Shown here: piece by piece, positions 4,638 to 18,738 of the stretch
Position numbering within the stretch: position 1 is the first letter of the stretch
Layout of the letters: every line of letters starts with the position of its first letter
NCBI GenBank assembly: GCA_035948415.1
Contig: DASZJD010000028.1
Span: 1-35,128 of the forward strand
DNA: 35,128 bases
Origin: Acidimicrobiia bacterium
GTDB lineage: Bacteria; Actinomycetota; Acidimicrobiia; IMCC26256; PALSA-555
Reading direction: 5' to 3'
The notes under the pieces: model-generated
What the model saw: the letters and a program-made list of their open reading frames with translations, nothing else
Told to the model about the DNA's origin: nothing
Databases searched by the model: none
Program-made: the position numbers and the translations under genes

Positions 4638-5441
4638 GTGAGCGACGACGACACCACGGGCCTCCTCGACGGCCGGGTAGGGATCGTGTCGGGTGTCGGC
4701 CCCGGGCTCGGCCGCGCCATCGCGCTCGCGCTGGCGCGCGCCGGCGCCGACGTCGGCCTCGGTGCCCGCCGCCCCGACGCGCTCGCCGCCGTCGCCGCCG
4801 AGGTCGAGGCGCTGGGCCGACGGGCCTGCGCCGTGCCGACCGACGTCACCGACGCCGGCCAGTGCCGCCGGCTCGCCGACACCGTGGCCGCCGACCTCGG
4901 CCGGGTGGACGTCCTCGTCAACAACGCGTTCACCGAGGAGGACTGGCGGGAGCCCTTCGACGGCCTCGACCCCCAGCGGTGGCGGGCGCCGATGGCCGTC
5001 AACTGCTTCGGCTCCCTCACGCTCACCCAGGCCACCCTCCGGCACCTGCGCGCCGCCGGCGGCGGGTCGGTGGTCATGATCACGACCCTGTCGATCAAGA
5101 ACCCGATCCCGCTCCTCGCTGGCTACGCGGCGTCGAAGCGAGCCCTCACCACCGCCGCCCACGTCCTGGCCCAGGAGCTGGGACCGGACCGGATCCGCGT
5201 CAACTGCGTCGCCCCGGGCCACATCCGGGGCCCGGTCCTCGACGAGTACTTCACCTGGATCGCGGCGCGGCGGGGCGTCGAGCCGGCCGACGTCGAGGCC
5301 GAGGTCGTGGCGCTGCACGCGCTCCCCACGATCCCGACGCCGACCGAGATCGCGGGTGCGGTCGTGTTCCTGGCCAGCGACCTCTCGCGCGCGATCACGG
5401 GCCAGACGCTGAACGTCAACTGTGGCCGGACCCTGGACTGA
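4638..5441 (+). CDS. Short-chain dehydrogenase/reductase (SDR), paralogue A
   Basis: A 267-residue classical SDR, predicted NAD(P)-dependent alcohol/ketone oxidoreductase. The Rossmann motif is SGVGPGLGRA (Ser replaces the usual Thr), followed by DVTDAGQC, NNAF, and catalytic YAASK (Tyr163, Lys167). The GTG at 4638 is preceded by GGGGG about 6 bases upstream and gives a short leader (MSDDDTTGLLDGRV) before the fold. It is the first gene of a plus-strand operon starting just downstream of the KstR-like box. It closely resembles the next gene (shared GVGPGLGR and DVTD.xQC blocks), suggesting tandem duplication. Substrate is inferred to be a hydroxyacyl-CoA or hydroxysteroid. Confidence 0.88.
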   Translation: MSDDDTTGLLDGRVGIVSGVGPGLGRAIALALARAGADVGLGARRPDALAAVAAEVEALGRRACAVPTDVTDAGQCRRLADTVAADLGRVDVLVNNAFTEEDWREPFDGLDPQRWRAPMAVNCFGSLTLTQATLRHLRAAGGGSVVMITTLSIKNPIPLLAGYAASKRALTTAAHVLAQELGPDRIRVNCVAPGHIRGPVLDEYFTWIAARRGVEPADVEAEVVALHALPTIPTPTEIAGAVVFLASDLSRAITGQTLNVNCGRTLD

Positions 5442-5454
5442 AAGGGGTCGGCTC

Positions 5455-6231
5455 GTGCTGCTGGGCGACAAGGTGGCGATCATCTCGGGCGTCGGGCCCG
5501 GCCTCGGCCGGCAGCTGGCGCTCGCCTACGCCCGGCACGGCGCCAGCCTGCTCCTCGGCGCCCGTCGCGAGGCCCGACTCGCCGCGGTGCAGGCCGAGGT
5601 GGCCGCGCTCGGCGGACGCGCCGTCGCGGTGCCGACCGACGTCACCGACCCCCGCCAGTGCGAGCGGCTGGCGCAGACGGCGATCGACGAGTACGGCCAC
5701 CTCGACGTCCTCGTGAACAACGCCGCCGCCGCGAGCCGGGCCCAGCGGTTCGAGGACGCCGACCTCGACGACTGGCGGCAGGCCGCCGAGGTCACGCTCT
5801 TCGGCAACCTGCAGATGACGCACGCCGCCATCCCCGCCCTGCGCGCTCGGGGCGGCGGGTCGATCCTGTTCGTGAACTCGATGATCGTCCGCGCCCCGAG
5901 GCCCCTCGAGGGCGCCTACGCCACCGCCAAGGCCGCGCTGCTCACGGCGGCGCAGGCCCTGGCGCGCGAGCTGGGCCCCGACCGCATCCGCGTGAACACG
6001 ATCGTGCCCGGGTGGCTCTGGGGGCCGACGGTCGAGCACCACCTCGAGGCGGTGGCGTCCCGGACCGGCAGCACCGTGCAGGAGCAGTACGACGAGCTCG
6101 CCTCGCACATCCCGCTCGGCCTCCCGACCGACGCCGACTGCGCCGACGCCGCCGTGTTCTTCGCCTCCGACCTGTCGTCGGTGGTCACCGGCCAGGCCCT
6201 CGACGTCAACGGCGGCGAGGTGTGCCACTGA
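5455..6231 (+). CDS. Short-chain dehydrogenase/reductase (SDR), paralogue B
   Basis: A 258-residue classical SDR with SGVGPGLGRQ in the cofactor-binding turn, NNAA after strand 4, and catalytic YATAK (Tyr155, Lys159). The GTG at 5455 has a strong ribosome binding site AAAGGGG at 5441-5447, so it is preferred over an in-frame GTG at 5422 that lies inside the previous gene. It follows paralogue A by 13 bp and is probably co-transcribed with it. The two may form a heteromer or act on successive or epimeric substrates; that is inference. Confidence 0.88.
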   Translation: MLLGDKVAIISGVGPGLGRQLALAYARHGASLLLGARREARLAAVQAEVAALGGRAVAVPTDVTDPRQCERLAQTAIDEYGHLDVLVNNAAAASRAQRFEDADLDDWRQAAEVTLFGNLQMTHAAIPALRARGGGSILFVNSMIVRAPRPLEGAYATAKAALLTAAQALARELGPDRIRVNTIVPGWLWGPTVEHHLEAVASRTGSTVQEQYDELASHIPLGLPTDADCADAAVFFASDLSSVVTGQALDVNGGEVCH

Positions 6232-6285
6232 CCCCCCGCCCCTCGACACCGTCCCGGTACGCTGCCGGCGACGAAGGAGGTCGTG

Positions 6286-6777
6286 ATGTCCCGACTCGAG
6301 CTGCCCCCCGGCGACCAGCCAGAGATCGTGCGGGTCTGGGACCTGCGACCCGAGATGGGCGCGGCGGTGCAGGGCCTGTCGTACGCCGTGTACTCGAAGA
6401 GCCAGCTGCCGGCCCGCGTCCGCGAGGCGGCCCGGATGCGGATCGCCGAGCTCAACGACTGCGCCGTGTGCCGCGGCTGGCGCATCCCCGAGCTCGCCGA
6501 GCAGGGCGTCACCGAGGATCTCTACGCCCACGTCTCCGACCCGGAGTCCGGCGACTACTCCGCGCCGGAGCGCCTCGCCATCGAGTACGCCGAGCGGTTC
6601 GCGCTCGACCACCGCTCGATCGACGACGCCTTCTTCGCCCGGCTCCGCGAGCACTTCACCGACCCCGAGATCCTCGACCTCACCATCTGCGTCGGGAACT
6701 GGGTCGCCTTCGGGCGCCTCACGATGGTGCTCGACCTCGACGAAGCCTGCGCGGTGCGGCCACGCGTCTCGGTGTGA
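6286..6777 (+). CDS. Carboxymuconolactone decarboxylase (CMD/AhpD-like) protein, CxxC form
   Basis: A 163-residue protein of the all-helical CMD/AhpD-like family. The redox motif is CAVC (Cys59, Cys62) in RIAELNDCAVCRGW, the same place as the AhpD thioredoxin-like cysteines, so a thiol-disulfide or peroxidase-type role is plausible; true decarboxylase activity is not implied. An AAGGAGG ribosome binding site (6274-6280) lies 5 bases before the ATG at 6286; a GTG at 6283 is too close to it. This is the first of three CMD paralogues in the operon, and the only one with both cysteines. Its stop codon overlaps the P450 start (GTGA). Confidence 0.85.
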   Translation: MSRLELPPGDQPEIVRVWDLRPEMGAAVQGLSYAVYSKSQLPARVREAARMRIAELNDCAVCRGWRIPELAEQGVTEDLYAHVSDPESGDYSAPERLAIEYAERFALDHRSIDDAFFARLREHFTDPEILDLTICVGNWVAFGRLTMVLDLDEACAVRPRVSV

Positions 6778-7997
6778 CGACCGCGACGGTCGACCTCTTC
6801 GACCTCGACCGGTTCGCCGACGGCCCGCCGCACGAGCTCTTCCGGAGGCTGCGCGCCGAGCAGCCGGTCTGCTTCCTCCCCGAGCCGGCCGGCCCGGGCT
6901 ACTGGGGCGTGTTCGGCTACGACGACGTCGTCACGGTCTCGCGGCACCCGGACCGATTCGGCTCGCACCCGAACACGATGATCCGCGACCCCGCCGGCGG
7001 CGACGCCGGCGCGGGCGCGCTGATGCTGAACCAGGACCCGCCGCGCCACACCCAGCTGCGCAAGCTCGTGAACCGGGGGTTCACGCCGCGGCAGGTCGCC
7101 ACGCTCACGCCGCGCGTCCAAGCCATCGTCGACCGCCTCCTCGACGGCGTCGCCGCCCGGGGCCGCTTCGACCTGGTCGCCGACGTCGCCGTCGAGCTGC
7201 CCCTCCAGGTCATCGCCGAGCTCGTCGGCGTGCCCGAGGAAGACCGGCACCGCGTGTTCGCCTGGACCGAGCGGATGATGAGCCTCGACGACCCCGAGCT
7301 CGGCGGCACCGAGGCGGACGCGCACGAGGCGATCCAGGCGATGTTCGCCTACGCCGACCGGTTGGCCGCCGAGCGCGCCGGCGGCGGCGGCAGCGACCTG
7401 CTCAGCGTGCTCCTCGCCGCCGAGGTAGAGGGGGAGCGGCTCGGGCCGCACGACGTCGACCTCTTCTTCCTGCTCCTCATGAACGCCGGGAGCGAGACGA
7501 CCCGGAACCTGATCACGGGCGGGACGCTGGCCCTGTTCGAGCACCCGTCCGAGCGCGCCCGGCTGCAGCGCGACCTCGACCTGGTGCCGAGCGCGGTGGA
7601 GGAGATGCTGCGCTTCGTGACCCCGGTGCTGCACTTCCGGCGAACCGCCCGGGAGGACACCGAGCTCGGCGGCCAGCACGTCCGGGCCGGCGACAAGGTC
7701 GTGGTGTGGTACGCGTCGGCCAACCGGGACGAGGCCCAGTTCCCGAACGCCGACCGCTTCGACATCATGCGGGCGCCGAACGACCACGTCGCCTTCGGCG
7801 CCGGCGGCCCCCACTTCTGCCTCGGCGCGGGCCTGGCCCGCCTCGAGGCCCGGCTGCTCTTCCAGGGCCTGCTCCGCCGATTCCCGGACCTGTGTCCCGA
7901 CGGCCCGGTGCGCCGGCTGCGGTCGAACTTCATCAACGGCATCAAGTCCTTGCCGGTGGCGGTCACCGCCGCGCCCGGCCCCGCCGACGCGTCCTAG
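6774..7997 (+). CDS. Cytochrome P450 (CYP125/CYP142/CYP124-like)
   Basis: A 407-residue soluble bacterial P450. Visible landmarks are the I-helix AGSETT (~238-243), the K-helix ExxR as EEMLR (~276-280), VLHFRRTA after it, and the heme loop FGAGGPHFCLG with ligand Cys349. The phrases NAGSETTRN, FRRTA and HVAFGAGGPHFCLGA are characteristic of the CYP125/142 group, which oxidises the terminal methyl of cholesterol side chains to C26/C27 alcohols and acids. GTG start at 6774 overlaps the CMD stop by four bases (GTGA), indicating translational coupling. The ferredoxin and reductase partners are not in the window. The exact subfamily would need a tree. Confidence 0.92.
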   Translation: MTTATVDLFDLDRFADGPPHELFRRLRAEQPVCFLPEPAGPGYWGVFGYDDVVTVSRHPDRFGSHPNTMIRDPAGGDAGAGALMLNQDPPRHTQLRKLVNRGFTPRQVATLTPRVQAIVDRLLDGVAARGRFDLVADVAVELPLQVIAELVGVPEEDRHRVFAWTERMMSLDDPELGGTEADAHEAIQAMFAYADRLAAERAGGGGSDLLSVLLAAEVEGERLGPHDVDLFFLLLMNAGSETTRNLITGGTLALFEHPSERARLQRDLDLVPSAVEEMLRFVTPVLHFRRTAREDTELGGQHVRAGDKVVVWYASANRDEAQFPNADRFDIMRAPNDHVAFGAGGPHFCLGAGLARLEARLLFQGLLRRFPDLCPDGPVRRLRSNFINGIKSLPVAVTAAPGPADAS

Positions 7998-8012: not shown

Positions 8013-8759
8013 ATGAGCGCGCTCACGGGCCGCGTCGCGGTGGTCACCGGCGCCGAGCAGCCGCTCGGCCGCGGCCTCGCCCTCGCGCTCGCCGACGCCG
8101 GCGCGTCCGTGGCGCTGGTCGGCGACGCCGCCACCCTGGCCCCGCTGACCGCCGACCTCGAGGCCCGCGGGAGCCGCGCCGTCGCCATCGACGCCGACCT
8201 CGAGCGTCGGGACGAGCTCGAGGACGCGTTCGCCACCGCCGCCGACGAGGTCGGCGGTCCCGTCGACGTCCTCGTGCACGCCGCGATGGACCCCGCCGCG
8301 TACCAGCGGCGGCCGTTCGAGACCGTCGACGACGAGGGCTGGCACCGGGTCTGGGAGGGCACGATGCGCGCCGCGCTGGCGGTGCTCCAAGCCGCGTACG
8401 GGCAGATGCGGGGTCGGGGCGGACGGATCGTCTTCGTGACGCCGACGGTGTCGATGTCGGGCGCGGCCGGTCTCGTGCCGTACGCGACCGCGCTCGAGGG
8501 GCAGCGGCTCCTCGCCAAGGCCGCGGCCCGCCAGTGGGGCCCGGACGGGATCACCGTCAACTGCGTGGCGCCGGCGCCGGAGCAGGTGCCGATCGACGTC
8601 GAGAGCCTCGAGGTCTCGCTCGCCGCTCCCGCCCTCGGCGGCCCCGGTGACGTCGAGGCCGACGTCGGCCCGGTCGTGGCCTTCCTCGCCAGCGACGCCG
8701 CCCACTTCGTGACCGGCGCCACCGTCGGCGCGGACGGCGGCGTGTGGATGGCGCCGTGA
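8013..8759 (+). CDS. SDR-fold protein lacking the catalytic lysine
   Basis: A 248-residue SDR-fold protein with a TGAEQPLGRG cofactor turn and a C-terminal VTGATVGADGG end typical of the family. The active site is degenerate: the YxxxK motif reads YATAL (Tyr157, Leu161 instead of Lys), and the usual NNAG is HAAM. It is therefore probably catalytically impaired on its own. GGGAGGGG ends about 8 bases before the ATG at 8013. It overlaps the next SDR gene by four bases (GTGA), and that protein has an intact active site, so a heteromeric complex with one structural and one catalytic subunit is a reasonable inference. Confidence 0.82.
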   Translation: MSALTGRVAVVTGAEQPLGRGLALALADAGASVALVGDAATLAPLTADLEARGSRAVAIDADLERRDELEDAFATAADEVGGPVDVLVHAAMDPAAYQRRPFETVDDEGWHRVWEGTMRAALAVLQAAYGQMRGRGGRIVFVTPTVSMSGAAGLVPYATALEGQRLLAKAAARQWGPDGITVNCVAPAPEQVPIDVESLEVSLAAPALGGPGDVEADVGPVVAFLASDAAHFVTGATVGADGGVWMAP

Positions 8760-9529
8760 GCGTCGACGGCCCGCTCGCGGGGCGCACCGCGGTCGTGACC
8801 GGCGCCGGCCAGGGCGTCGGGCTCGGCATCGCCCACGCCCTCGCCCACCGGGGCGCTCGGGTCGTGCTCGCCGCCCGCCGGGCCGAGACCGGCGAGCCCG
8901 CCGCGGCCGAGATCCGCGCCCGTGGCGGCGACGCCACCTGCGTCGTCACCGACGTGACCCGACGGGAGGACATGGAGCGGTGCGTCGCGCTCACGGTCGC
9001 CGCCACGGGGAGCCTCGAGATCATGGTGCACAACGCGTTTCAAGGCGGGCGGGCGCACCGGCTCGAGGAGGTCGACGACGCCCTCTGGACCACGAACTCC
9101 CGCACCGCGGTGTGGGGCTCCTACTACGCGGCCCGCTTCGCCTCGCCGCACCTGCGCGCCGCCGGGCCGCGAGGCCGACTCGTCCTCGTGACGTCGCCGG
9201 CGGGCGTCGAGGGGAGCGCGCTCCGCCCCGTGTACTCGCCGGTGAAGGCGGCCCAGCGGGCGATGGCCAAGAGCCTGGCCCGGGAGTGGGGCGGCCACGG
9301 GATCACGGTCAACTGTCTGGCTCCGGTCGCCGACACGCCCGCGCTCGCCGGCGCGTTCGCGGCGAGCCCCGCGCTGCGTGCGCGCGTCGAGGCCCGCACC
9401 GCCCTCGGCCGCATCGGCGACGCCGAGCACGACGTCGGCGTCGTCGCTGCCTTCCTCGCCAGCGACGACGGCGGCTACATCACCGGGCAGACCATCGTCT
9501 GCGACGGCGGCAGCTTCATGGGGCTGTGA
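8756..9529 (+). CDS. Short-chain dehydrogenase/reductase, catalytically intact
   Basis: A 257-residue classical SDR with TGAGQGVGLG for cofactor binding, VHNAF in place of NNAG, Ser in TSPAG, and YSPVK (Tyr160, Lys164) as the active site. The GTG at 8756 forms a GTGA overlap with the upstream degenerate SDR; an in-frame ATG at 8744 lies inside that gene and is less likely. Its TGA shares one base with the ATG of the next CMD gene. Predicted hydroxyacyl-CoA or hydroxysteroid dehydrogenase, possibly paired with the upstream SDR. Confidence 0.87.
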   Translation: MSVDGPLAGRTAVVTGAGQGVGLGIAHALAHRGARVVLAARRAETGEPAAAEIRARGGDATCVVTDVTRREDMERCVALTVAATGSLEIMVHNAFQGGRAHRLEEVDDALWTTNSRTAVWGSYYAARFASPHLRAAGPRGRLVLVTSPAGVEGSALRPVYSPVKAAQRAMAKSLAREWGGHGITVNCLAPVADTPALAGAFAASPALRARVEARTALGRIGDAEHDVGVVAAFLASDDGGYITGQTIVCDGGSFMGL

Positions 9530-10044
9530 TGAGCTGGCTCCCCGACGCCGCCGAGGGCGACACGCCGCTGGAGCGCGTCTTCGGGCTGCGCCCCGACCTC
9601 TACGAGCCCTTCCGGGCCTTCTACGACGTCTTCTGGACCGAGGGCCTGCTCGACCCGGTCGTGCTCGAGCTGTGCCGCCTGCGCGTCGCGCAGCTGCTCG
9701 GCTGCGAGAGCGAGCAGCGCCTGCGCTACCGGCCGGCGCGGGACGCCGGGCTCGCCGAGGACCAGGTCGCCCAGCTCCCCGGGTGGCCCCAGGGTCCCGC
9801 GTTCACCGACGCGCAGCGGGCGGCGCTCGCCGTCGCCGAGCAGTTCGTGCTCGACCCGCACCGGATCGACGACGAGCGACGCGACGCCGTGATCGACCAC
9901 TTCGGCCTGCCCGGGCTCGTCGCGCTCTGCGAGGTCCTCGCCCTCTTCGACGGGTTCTGCCGCTTCCGCACCATCCTCGGCGTCGCCGCGCCCCCCACGG
10001 TGACCGTCGTCCCGGCGCCGGCGCCCGGGACGTCCCTCGCCTGA
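9529..10044 (+). CDS. CMD/AhpD-like protein with CxxE in place of CxxC
   Basis: A 171-residue CMD/AhpD-like protein. The region aligning with the CxxC of the first paralogue reads LGCESEQRLRY, so Cys59 is kept while the second redox residue is Glu62. The ATG at 9529 overlaps the preceding stop by one base (TGATG). With a single Cys it cannot form the intramolecular disulfide expected of AhpD; it could be a partner subunit of the neighbouring Cys- and Sec-containing paralogues, or use a different chemistry (the glutamate might act as a base). CMD proteins form oligomers, so mixed assemblies are possible (inference). Confidence 0.82.
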   Translation: MSWLPDAAEGDTPLERVFGLRPDLYEPFRAFYDVFWTEGLLDPVVLELCRLRVAQLLGCESEQRLRYRPARDAGLAEDQVAQLPGWPQGPAFTDAQRAALAVAEQFVLDPHRIDDERRDAVIDHFGLPGLVALCEVLALFDGFCRFRTILGVAAPPTVTVVPAPAPGTSLA

Positions 10045-10057
10045 ACCGGAGGAGCCC

Positions 10058-10561
10058 ATGACCGGTCCCCGACACCCGATCCGCGGTGACGCGCTCGGCA
10101 CCCAGCCCGAGGCGATCGCCGCCTTCTGGCGCCTGTACGGGCAGCTGTGGAGTCACGGCACCGTCGAGCACGCCGTGAAGGAGATCGCCCGGATCCGCAA
10201 CGCCCGGATCACCGACTGCGGGTACTGACGCAACGTCCGCTTCGCGGTCGCGAGGCAGCAGGGCCTGACCGAGGCGCGCGTCGCGCTCGTCGACGAGGGG
10301 TTCGAGGCCAGCGACCTGTCGCCCCGCGAGAAGGCGGTGGTCCGGTACGTCGACACGTTCCTCACCGACCCCAGCGGCCTGACCGAGGGGCAGCGCCAGG
10401 AGCTCCTCGAGCACTTCACGGCCGGGCAGCTCGTCGAGCTGACGGCCGCCGCGGCGCTGTTCGTCGGCTTCTCGAAGATCGCGATCGCCCTCGGGCCGCC
10501 CCCCGACATGCCGACCCAGGTCATCCCGACGCCCGACGTGCCCGACGAGGGCGGGTCGTAG
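10058..10561 (+). CDS. CMD/AhpD-like selenoprotein, CxxU (UGA read as selenocysteine)
   Basis: Reading through the in-frame TGA at 10226-10228 gives a 167-residue CMD/AhpD-like protein of normal family length. The residues around it are RITDCGY-U-RNVRF, so UGA (residue 57) falls exactly on the second cysteine of the family CxxC, with Cys54 before it. The frame continues with every one of the next fifty codons ending in G or C, as expected for real coding sequence here. A hairpin just after the UGA has the layout of a bacterial SECIS (listed separately). The ATG at 10058 has GGAGGAG at 10048-10054. It ends the plus-strand operon. Likely a thiol/selenol oxidoreductase or peroxidase in the cytoplasm. 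The alternative is a TGC-to-TGA nonsense mutation, which the hairpin and the second selenoprotein in this window argue against. Confidence 0.87.
10226..10254 (+). promoter_or_regulatory. UGA-Sec codon and SECIS-like hairpin of the CMD selenoprotein
   Basis: After TGA (10226-10228) a hairpin forms at 10240-10254: C40-G54, T41-A53, a single bulged T42, then C43-G52, G44-C51 and C45-G50, closing a four-base loop GGTC at 10246-10249. The SECIS upper stem of E. coli fdhF has the same design: three pairs below a GGUC loop, then one bulged U followed by a U-A pair. The loop begins 18 nt after the UGA, against 19 nt in fdhF. SelB recognises the loop GU and the bulged U. Confidence 0.82.
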
Positions 10562-14132: not shown

Positions 14133-15050
14133 TCACGAGGCCGACGGCTCGGCGCCGACGCCCTCGAGGTCCTGCAGCGACGGCGCGAAGTAGTAGGAGC
14201 CGCTCACCGGGTGGGAGAAGTCGGTTAGGCGGTCGCGGACCCCGTCGGGGCCGGTGCCGAACATCCGGGCGAGCATCTTGTCGAACCGACTGGGGTCGGC
14301 GCTGAACGCGACGAAGAACAGCCCGTGCTCGTGCACGGTCCCGTAGGGGACGCTCCGCCGGTAGATGTGGAGCTCCTCGCCGTCCTCCTCGATGCTGACG
14401 CGTGCGATGTGCGCGGTCGGCGGCTTCGCCGCCTCGTCGAGCTCGACGCTGTCGGGCTTCGTGCGTCCGAAGACCCGCTCCTGGTCGACCAGCGAGAGCC
14501 GGTCGAAGGCCTCGAGGTCGTGGACCCAGCGCATCGCCATCGCGTACGAGCCGCCGGCGCCCGGCGCGTCGTCGGGCACGACGGCGACGGACGGAGCCTC
14601 GTAGGTCGGCGGGTTCTCGGTGCCGTCGATGAACCCCGTGAGGTCGCGGCTGTCCCGGTAGACGAAGCCCGGCTGCTCCGCCGCCAGCGCCGCCGCCGGC
14701 CCCATGGCGCTGGTCACGGCCCGAGCGGCGTCGAGGGCGAGGTCCGGTCCGGTGCCGTGCACCCACACCCAGACGTCGTGCTGCGTCGCCGGGGCCCGCG
14801 GCGGCCCCGGTCCTCCGACCGGCTGGAAGGCGCCCCAGCCGCGGTCGGCGCCGCCGGGGGCGAGGCGGGCCCAGAGCGCGGGCCCGAACGCGATGATCAG
14901 GTTGAAGCCGCCGACGGTCACCGACGGCTCCCGGAGCGCCTGGACCGCGGCGCGCACGTCCCGGTCGGCGGCGCCGTCGACCAGGTCGAACTCGAGGTGG
15001 TAGTGCGCCCGGGTGCCCTGGGCGAAGATGCCCGGTTGCGCGTCCGCCAT
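14133..15050 (-). CDS. DyP-type heme peroxidase (YfeX-like, class B)
   Basis: A 305-residue dye-decolorizing peroxidase: a heme enzyme that uses hydrogen peroxide to oxidise diverse substrates. The family motif GFIDGTENP carries the distal Asp142; His214 in TAHIARVSI fits the proximal heme ligand, and YRRSVPYGT holds the conserved distal Arg. The protein starts MADAQPGIFAQGTRAH without a signal peptide or twin-arginine motif, so it is cytoplasmic, and its C-terminal tail does not resemble an encapsulin-targeting peptide. GGAGGG precedes the ATG by 7 bases. It lies 83 bp after the APH-like gene and may be the last gene of the racemase unit. Confidence 0.9.
   Translation of the reverse strand: MADAQPGIFAQGTRAHYHLEFDLVDGAADRDVRAAVQALREPSVTVGGFNLIIAFGPALWARLAPGGADRGWGAFQPVGGPGPPRAPATQHDVWVWVHGTGPDLALDAARAVTSAMGPAAALAAEQPGFVYRDSRDLTGFIDGTENPPTYEAPSVAVVPDDAPGAGGSYAMAMRWVHDLEAFDRLSLVDQERVFGRTKPDSVELDEAAKPPTAHIARVSIEEDGEELHIYRRSVPYGTVHEHGLFFVAFSADPSRFDKMLARMFGTGPDGVRDRLTDFSHPVSGSYYFAPSLQDLEGVGAEPSAS

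Positions 15051-15133: not shown

Positions 15134-18738
<3,605 letters not shown>

Follow-up and report, generated by a model that had tools for sequence, protein, structure and literature searches.

The window analysed here, a 35,128-nucleotide stretch of an Acidimicrobiia genome, contains a reading frame interrupted by one in-frame TGA, which raises the question of whether this is a single gene for a selenocysteine (Sec)-containing enzyme and, if so, what that enzyme does. A sequence-only reading of the locus had proposed a CMD/AhpD-like selenoprotein of the CxxU type, with the UGA at the second Cys of the active site and a coding frame continuing beyond it. Coordinates of the features discussed below are presented in Table 1.

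Table 1 Coordinates of the selenoprotein gene, its signals and the surrounding operon in the window.
Feature	Position	Strand	Remarks
Short-chain dehydrogenase (SDR)	about 4640-5441	+	Upstream of 5455; missed by GC-based gene caller
Short-chain dehydrogenase	5455-6231	+	
CMDa, third CMD-type gene	6283-6777	+	CAVC (Cys form) in window; UGA form in relatives' operon copies
Cytochrome P450 of the same operon	6774-7997	+	
Short-chain dehydrogenase	8013-8759	+	
Short-chain dehydrogenase	8756-9529	+	Overlaps CMDb start
CMDb, degenerate CMD paralogue, proposed non-catalytic partner	9526-10044	+	CESE replaces CxxC; CMD-fold match 50.5 bits
Ribosome-binding GGAGG	10048-10052	+	5 nt ahead of ATG 10058; from sequence
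Candidate selenoprotein CMD gene	10058-10561	+	167 codons; motif C54-G-Y-U57-x3-R61; CMD match and homologues
In-frame UGA, putative selenocysteine codon (U57)	10226-10228	+	Cys or UGA in 55/55 distinct homologues
SECIS-like hairpin	10239-10256	+	7-bp stem 10239-10245/10250-10256; loop GGTC 10246-10249
Steroid 3-ketoacyl-CoA thiolase equivalog	17560-18738		7 kb from selenoprotein gene

An in-frame UGA at the second cysteine of a CxxC site

The TGA at 10226-10228 was the sole interruption between the ATG at 10058 and the TAG at 10559-10561, and it replaces the second Cys of the CxxC site. GC content per codon position was typical of coding sequence both upstream (0.66/0.54/0.93) and downstream (0.75/0.46/1.00) of the UGA and, when the window gene was compared with four relatives, dN was lower than dS both before and after it. 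The 167-residue read-through protein matched Pfam CMD (PF02627) with 32.8 bits (cut-off 23), and the match, at residues 17-98, spans the UGA. These observations agree with the proposal that the frame remains coding past the UGA, and no decayed frame was found behind it among the relatives compared.

Searching genome contigs with a single-protein query found no loci, whereas an alignment query did. The set of 55 distinct homologues combined same-order orthologues with loci from further orders and phyla. As the sequence-only reading had anticipated, the column of U57 held either UGA (34) or Cys (21), with 7 UGA and 4 Cys among the same-order orthologues. The Sec/Cys label changed six times on the maximum-likelihood tree, and at least four of these changes were forced by well supported branches.

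All of the Sec machinery looked for was present in the window's genome (3.4 Mb, 98% complete). This included selA (470 bits) adjoining selB (259 bits), selD (389 bits) and a tRNA-Sec with the anticodon UCA (66.7 bits). Genomes with the UGA form carried selA in 21/21 cases, compared to 6/12 genomes with the Cys form (Fisher test, P = 0.0008, phylogeny ignored). Two further CMD/AhpD-like UGA genes were observed in the same genome, one at L014:1216-1809 (minus strand; G000:C3) and one around 1501-1692 of L018 (G000:C92). Both have an NRCHYU-x3-H site and, unlike the window selenoprotein, keep the relay His; with them, the genome holds at least three CMD-fold selenoprotein candidates.

A hairpin associated with the UGA codon

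A hairpin with GGTC in its loop had been claimed just downstream of the UGA, with a bulged T as in the fdhF-type design. The hairpin and its loop were found, the loop starting 17 nt after the UGA, whilst comparison of the homologues supported a continuous 7-bp stem and not the bulged design. The window has 539 TGA triplets when all frames of both strands are counted, and only the one at 10226-10228 had a complete 7-bp stem at this offset. Across the UGA genes, the hairpin spanned +13 to +30, counted from the U of the UGA, and had the sequence GCUUCGC-NNNN-GCGARGC or close variants. Its loops were GGUC, AGGU, AGUU or CGUG, the second loop base being G in 25/25 aligned rows.

At least six of the seven stem pairs were formed in 32/34 UGA genes but in 0/21 Cys genes, even though the Cys proteins resemble the UGA proteins in their amino acids at the hairpin region. 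Stem pairing amounted to 95%, compared to 30-55% in slid registers, and both-sided (compensatory) changes were present at two stem pairs. In L067/L068, a G-C pair was exchanged for an A-U pair, and two Ala residues were replaced, one by Thr and the other by Val (RFAVA to RFTVV). A base pair kept through paired amino-acid changes in this way clearly illustrates how an RNA signal can shape a protein sequence. The hairpin also tracked Sec in 4/4 phylogenetically independent Sec/Cys pairs (sign test, P = 0.125, n being too small to reach 0.05). Two divergent UGA genes, L093 and L104, had no stem at the shared register, and L104 offers an alternative 8-bp stem with a 6-nt loop. The folding energy of the window's 56 nt was no better than that of shuffles (z = 0.43) and an Rfam search gave no match, so the case for a SECIS rests on comparison.

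The E. coli fdhF SECIS has a GGUC apical loop and a bulged U. The window hairpin resembles it in its GGUC apical loop and its nearly equal distance from the UGA. Unlike the fdhF element, the family hairpin is a continuous stem without a conserved bulged U, and loops other than GGUC also occur in the UGA homologues.

In the closest relative, a member of the same genus with 74% identity, the codon aligned with the UGA reads TGC, as a sequencing error for TGC/TGT might suggest, but both this reading and that of a true stop followed by a pseudogene are highly improbable and were rejected, since 34 distinct homologues from independent assemblies share the UGA at the same codon with intact downstream frames, coding bias and dN < dS persist downstream, the hairpin was seen only together with the UGA, and the genome has the full Sec machinery. 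Homologues, hairpin and machinery thus support the proposed CxxU selenoprotein, and we infer from sequence that positions 10058-10561 are one whole CMD-fold selenoprotein gene. SelB would deliver Sec-tRNA(UCA) to the UGA, guided by the 7-bp hairpin.

Active site and operon context

CxxU AhpD-like/CMD selenoproteins, which the sequence-only reading had taken to be known already, have been known since 2005 from the Sargasso Sea and GOS surveys (PMC1088965, PMC2398784) and are covered in reviews (PMC9312934, PMC13188914). The window gene is a new member of this described kind (COG2128, PF02627), with which it shares a Sec replacing the second cysteine of CxxC and the existence of Cys homologues. 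Unlike the known members, its protein scored below the NCBIfam cut-offs (in bits: TIGR01926, 42.4 versus 81.8; NF053654, 35.0 versus 310; NF041238, 27.1 versus 175; NF041047, 17.7 versus 110), carries Arg, not His, four residues past the Sec, and is encoded beside a degenerate paralogue in a P450/SDR operon. Less usual are its Arg-type active site, the degenerate partner that almost always accompanies it and the Sec/Cys mosaic at two sites of the P450 operon, none of which the sequence-only reading had picked up. Within the open-licence PMC literature, no paper on the window gene was found for Acidimicrobiia selenoproteins, and none was found for Hopanoidivorans.

Residues E42, C54, C/U57 and R61 were invariant in a 20-row alignment, and an Arg stood four residues after the second Cys/Sec in 55/55 homologues. 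In AhpD-like proteins, two Cys and a His four residues past the second Cys are reported to be invariant (PMC3141380). Comparison with Mycobacterium tuberculosis AhpD and Pseudomonas aeruginosa PA0269 (PMC3141380) revealed the same fold, the CxxC dyad and a Glu 12 positions ahead of the first Cys, but Arg in place of His137/His55 and Sec for the second Cys. The nearest solved folds to the model of the catalytic subunit (predicted structure, pLDDT 87) were the AhpD-like proteins 2gmy, 2o4d and 7xw1. The absence of the relay His from every homologue weakens a direct AhpD peroxidase reading, and no AhpC gene was seen in the P450/SDR operon. With an AhpD-like fold and dyad but a different proton relay, the protein was not filed as an AhpD peroxidase; the earlier 'AhpD-like' label holds for the fold, whereas for the peroxidase chemistry it would be premature. 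Since the Cys forms carry Arg too, this residue characterises the subfamily as a whole and does not result from the use of Sec.

By analogy with AhpD, U57 is likely to be the attacking residue and C54 the resolving one, which would convert the selenenic acid into an S-Se bond. With Arg61 in the place of the AhpD relay His, the base may be different or not needed, and the selenol would presumably not require a His base for its ionisation at neutral pH.

The proposed placement of the gene in a P450/SDR operon was confirmed. The order of the operon is SDR, SDR, CMDa, P450, SDR, SDR, CMDb, selenoprotein, followed by a convergent acyl-CoA ligase and enoyl-CoA hydratase, and the steroid 3-ketoacyl-CoA thiolase equivalog lies in the same window. 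Elsewhere in the window, a DyP-type peroxidase C-terminal domain is encoded on the minus strand (14133-15050), and the protein encoded at 52-1326 resembles the model of the bifunctional lipase/adenylate cyclase LipJ, scoring 444 bits against a cut-off of 800. We tentatively suggest, at somewhat less than even confidence, that the substrate may be a hydrophobic hydroperoxide, or an oxidised intermediate like it, from the surrounding P450/SDR/acyl-CoA lipid- or steroid-type pathway. Alternatively, the CxxU site could perform another reduction for the P450/SDR pathway, e.g. reductive dehalogenation or thiol-disulfide exchange. The CMD-fold debrominase Bmp8 was among the structural matches and the replacement of the relay His of peroxidatic AhpD by Arg fits such a role; however, the Bmp8 match was weaker than those to AhpD-like proteins and no halogen-related genes were seen beside the operon, making this chemistry unlikely.

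Sec/Cys exchange was also apparent at a second site of the operon. CMDa has CAVC in the window and in the same-genus relative, and is a UGA gene (CPIU or CPVU) with a hairpin in G041, G036, G034, G032 and G027; in G041, G036 and G034 this form sits in copies of the same operon. The combined CMDa/CMD states in the five operon genomes were Cys/Sec (window), Cys/Cys (G037), Sec/Cys (G036) and Sec/Sec (G041, G034).

A degenerate partner and its resemblance to sestrins

The stop codon of CMDb is separated from the ATG of the selenoprotein gene by 13 nt. This arrangement was conserved across the genome collection, with CMDb directly upstream of CMD in 45/46 loci, including Actinomycetota, Myxococcota, Pseudomonadota, Chloroflexota and Binatota; in the sole exception, L114, CMDb was located 2.6 kb upstream. 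The Cys pair was kept in no CMDb row of the alignment. One pair, in L077 (titled Klebsiella pneumoniae MAG), was nearly identical to that in L078, an uncultured Gammaproteobacterium MAG, and L077 is probably a mislabelled bin. Outside the window's family, the CMDb-CMD pair was kept and the P450/SDR operon was mostly absent, so the operon's substrate cannot explain what the family as a whole does. Recurrent neighbours of the pair there were lineage-specific and indicated no shared substrate. These differing neighbours suggest the pair is a general tool, of which the P450 operon is one use.

A single reading frame covered both CMDb and CMD in L084 and L086 (Yinghuangia) and in L082 (Acidimicrobiaceae). 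Structure prediction for the fused protein of L082 gave a fold with a pTM of 0.86, albeit from a shallow alignment (11 rows, 3 covering the C-terminal half). Its best solved match over both domains was human Sestrin2 (Z 22.8, 267 residues, 3.1 Å), with single-domain AhpD-like proteins ranking behind (Z 17.2 and below). Sestrin2 has one active and one degenerate AhpD-like half (PMC4674687), and fused AhpD-like proteins whose N-terminal half is devoid of Cys have been described from bacteria (PMC11429811). The active and degenerate domains are arranged as a pseudo-dimer in the predicted L082 structure, and the unfused window pair may be expected to adopt the same arrangement. Sestrins and bacterial fused dimers (PMC4674687, PMC11429811) likewise combine a redox-active and a degenerate AhpD-like domain, with the same predicted packing. 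Unlike these, CMDb and CMD are mostly two genes and the catalytic half is often a Sec form. The degenerate half precedes the active one, as in the bacterial fused forms and opposite to Sestrin2, and CMDb, unlike sestrins, lacks the DDYDY hinge motif. No description of the unfused pair or of its selenoprotein form was found in the open-licence PMC literature.

Synteny, natural fusions and predicted structure all point to a CMDb-CMD heterodimer, which we consider probable and in which the subunits would pack like the two halves of human Sestrin2. Homo-oligomers are usual for AhpD-like proteins, commonly as single-chain hexamers or trimers (PMC3141380), and the catalytic subunit model folds well alone, as would befit a selenoprotein acting by itself as a homo-oligomeric AhpD-like peroxidase with CMDb as an independent protein that happens to be encoded in the same operon. 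We judge this improbable, given that CMDb stays adjacent in several phyla while the other neighbours vary, is naturally fused to CMD in three loci and has no Cys pair.

The heterodimer fits our overall explanation, in which we have good confidence, that the CMD-fold selenoprotein is the catalytic subunit of a two-subunit CMDb-CMD module, which may act on a hydrophobic hydroperoxide or similar substrate. On balance, we also lean towards a fuller evolutionary account, in which the module is an unfused sestrin-like redox heterodimer with a selenoprotein as its catalytic half. CMD would have been duplicated, one copy becoming Cys-less yet remaining adjacent in different phyla; in some lineages the two would have fused later, and Sec and Cys would have been freely exchanged. 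In the Acidimicrobiia family, the module would have been coupled to a P450/SDR pathway containing a second Sec/Cys-toggling CMD enzyme.

With standard annotation, the window gene and the UGA forms among its orthologues would be overlooked or cut short, and the active member of a widely distributed pair would stay hidden. With all four Sec/Cys combinations at two sites, the one operon constitutes a natural experiment on the benefit of selenium to an enzyme. Finally, the occurrence of the degenerate partner as a separate protein in most lineages and in fused form in others bears on the possible origin of the two-domain sestrins.
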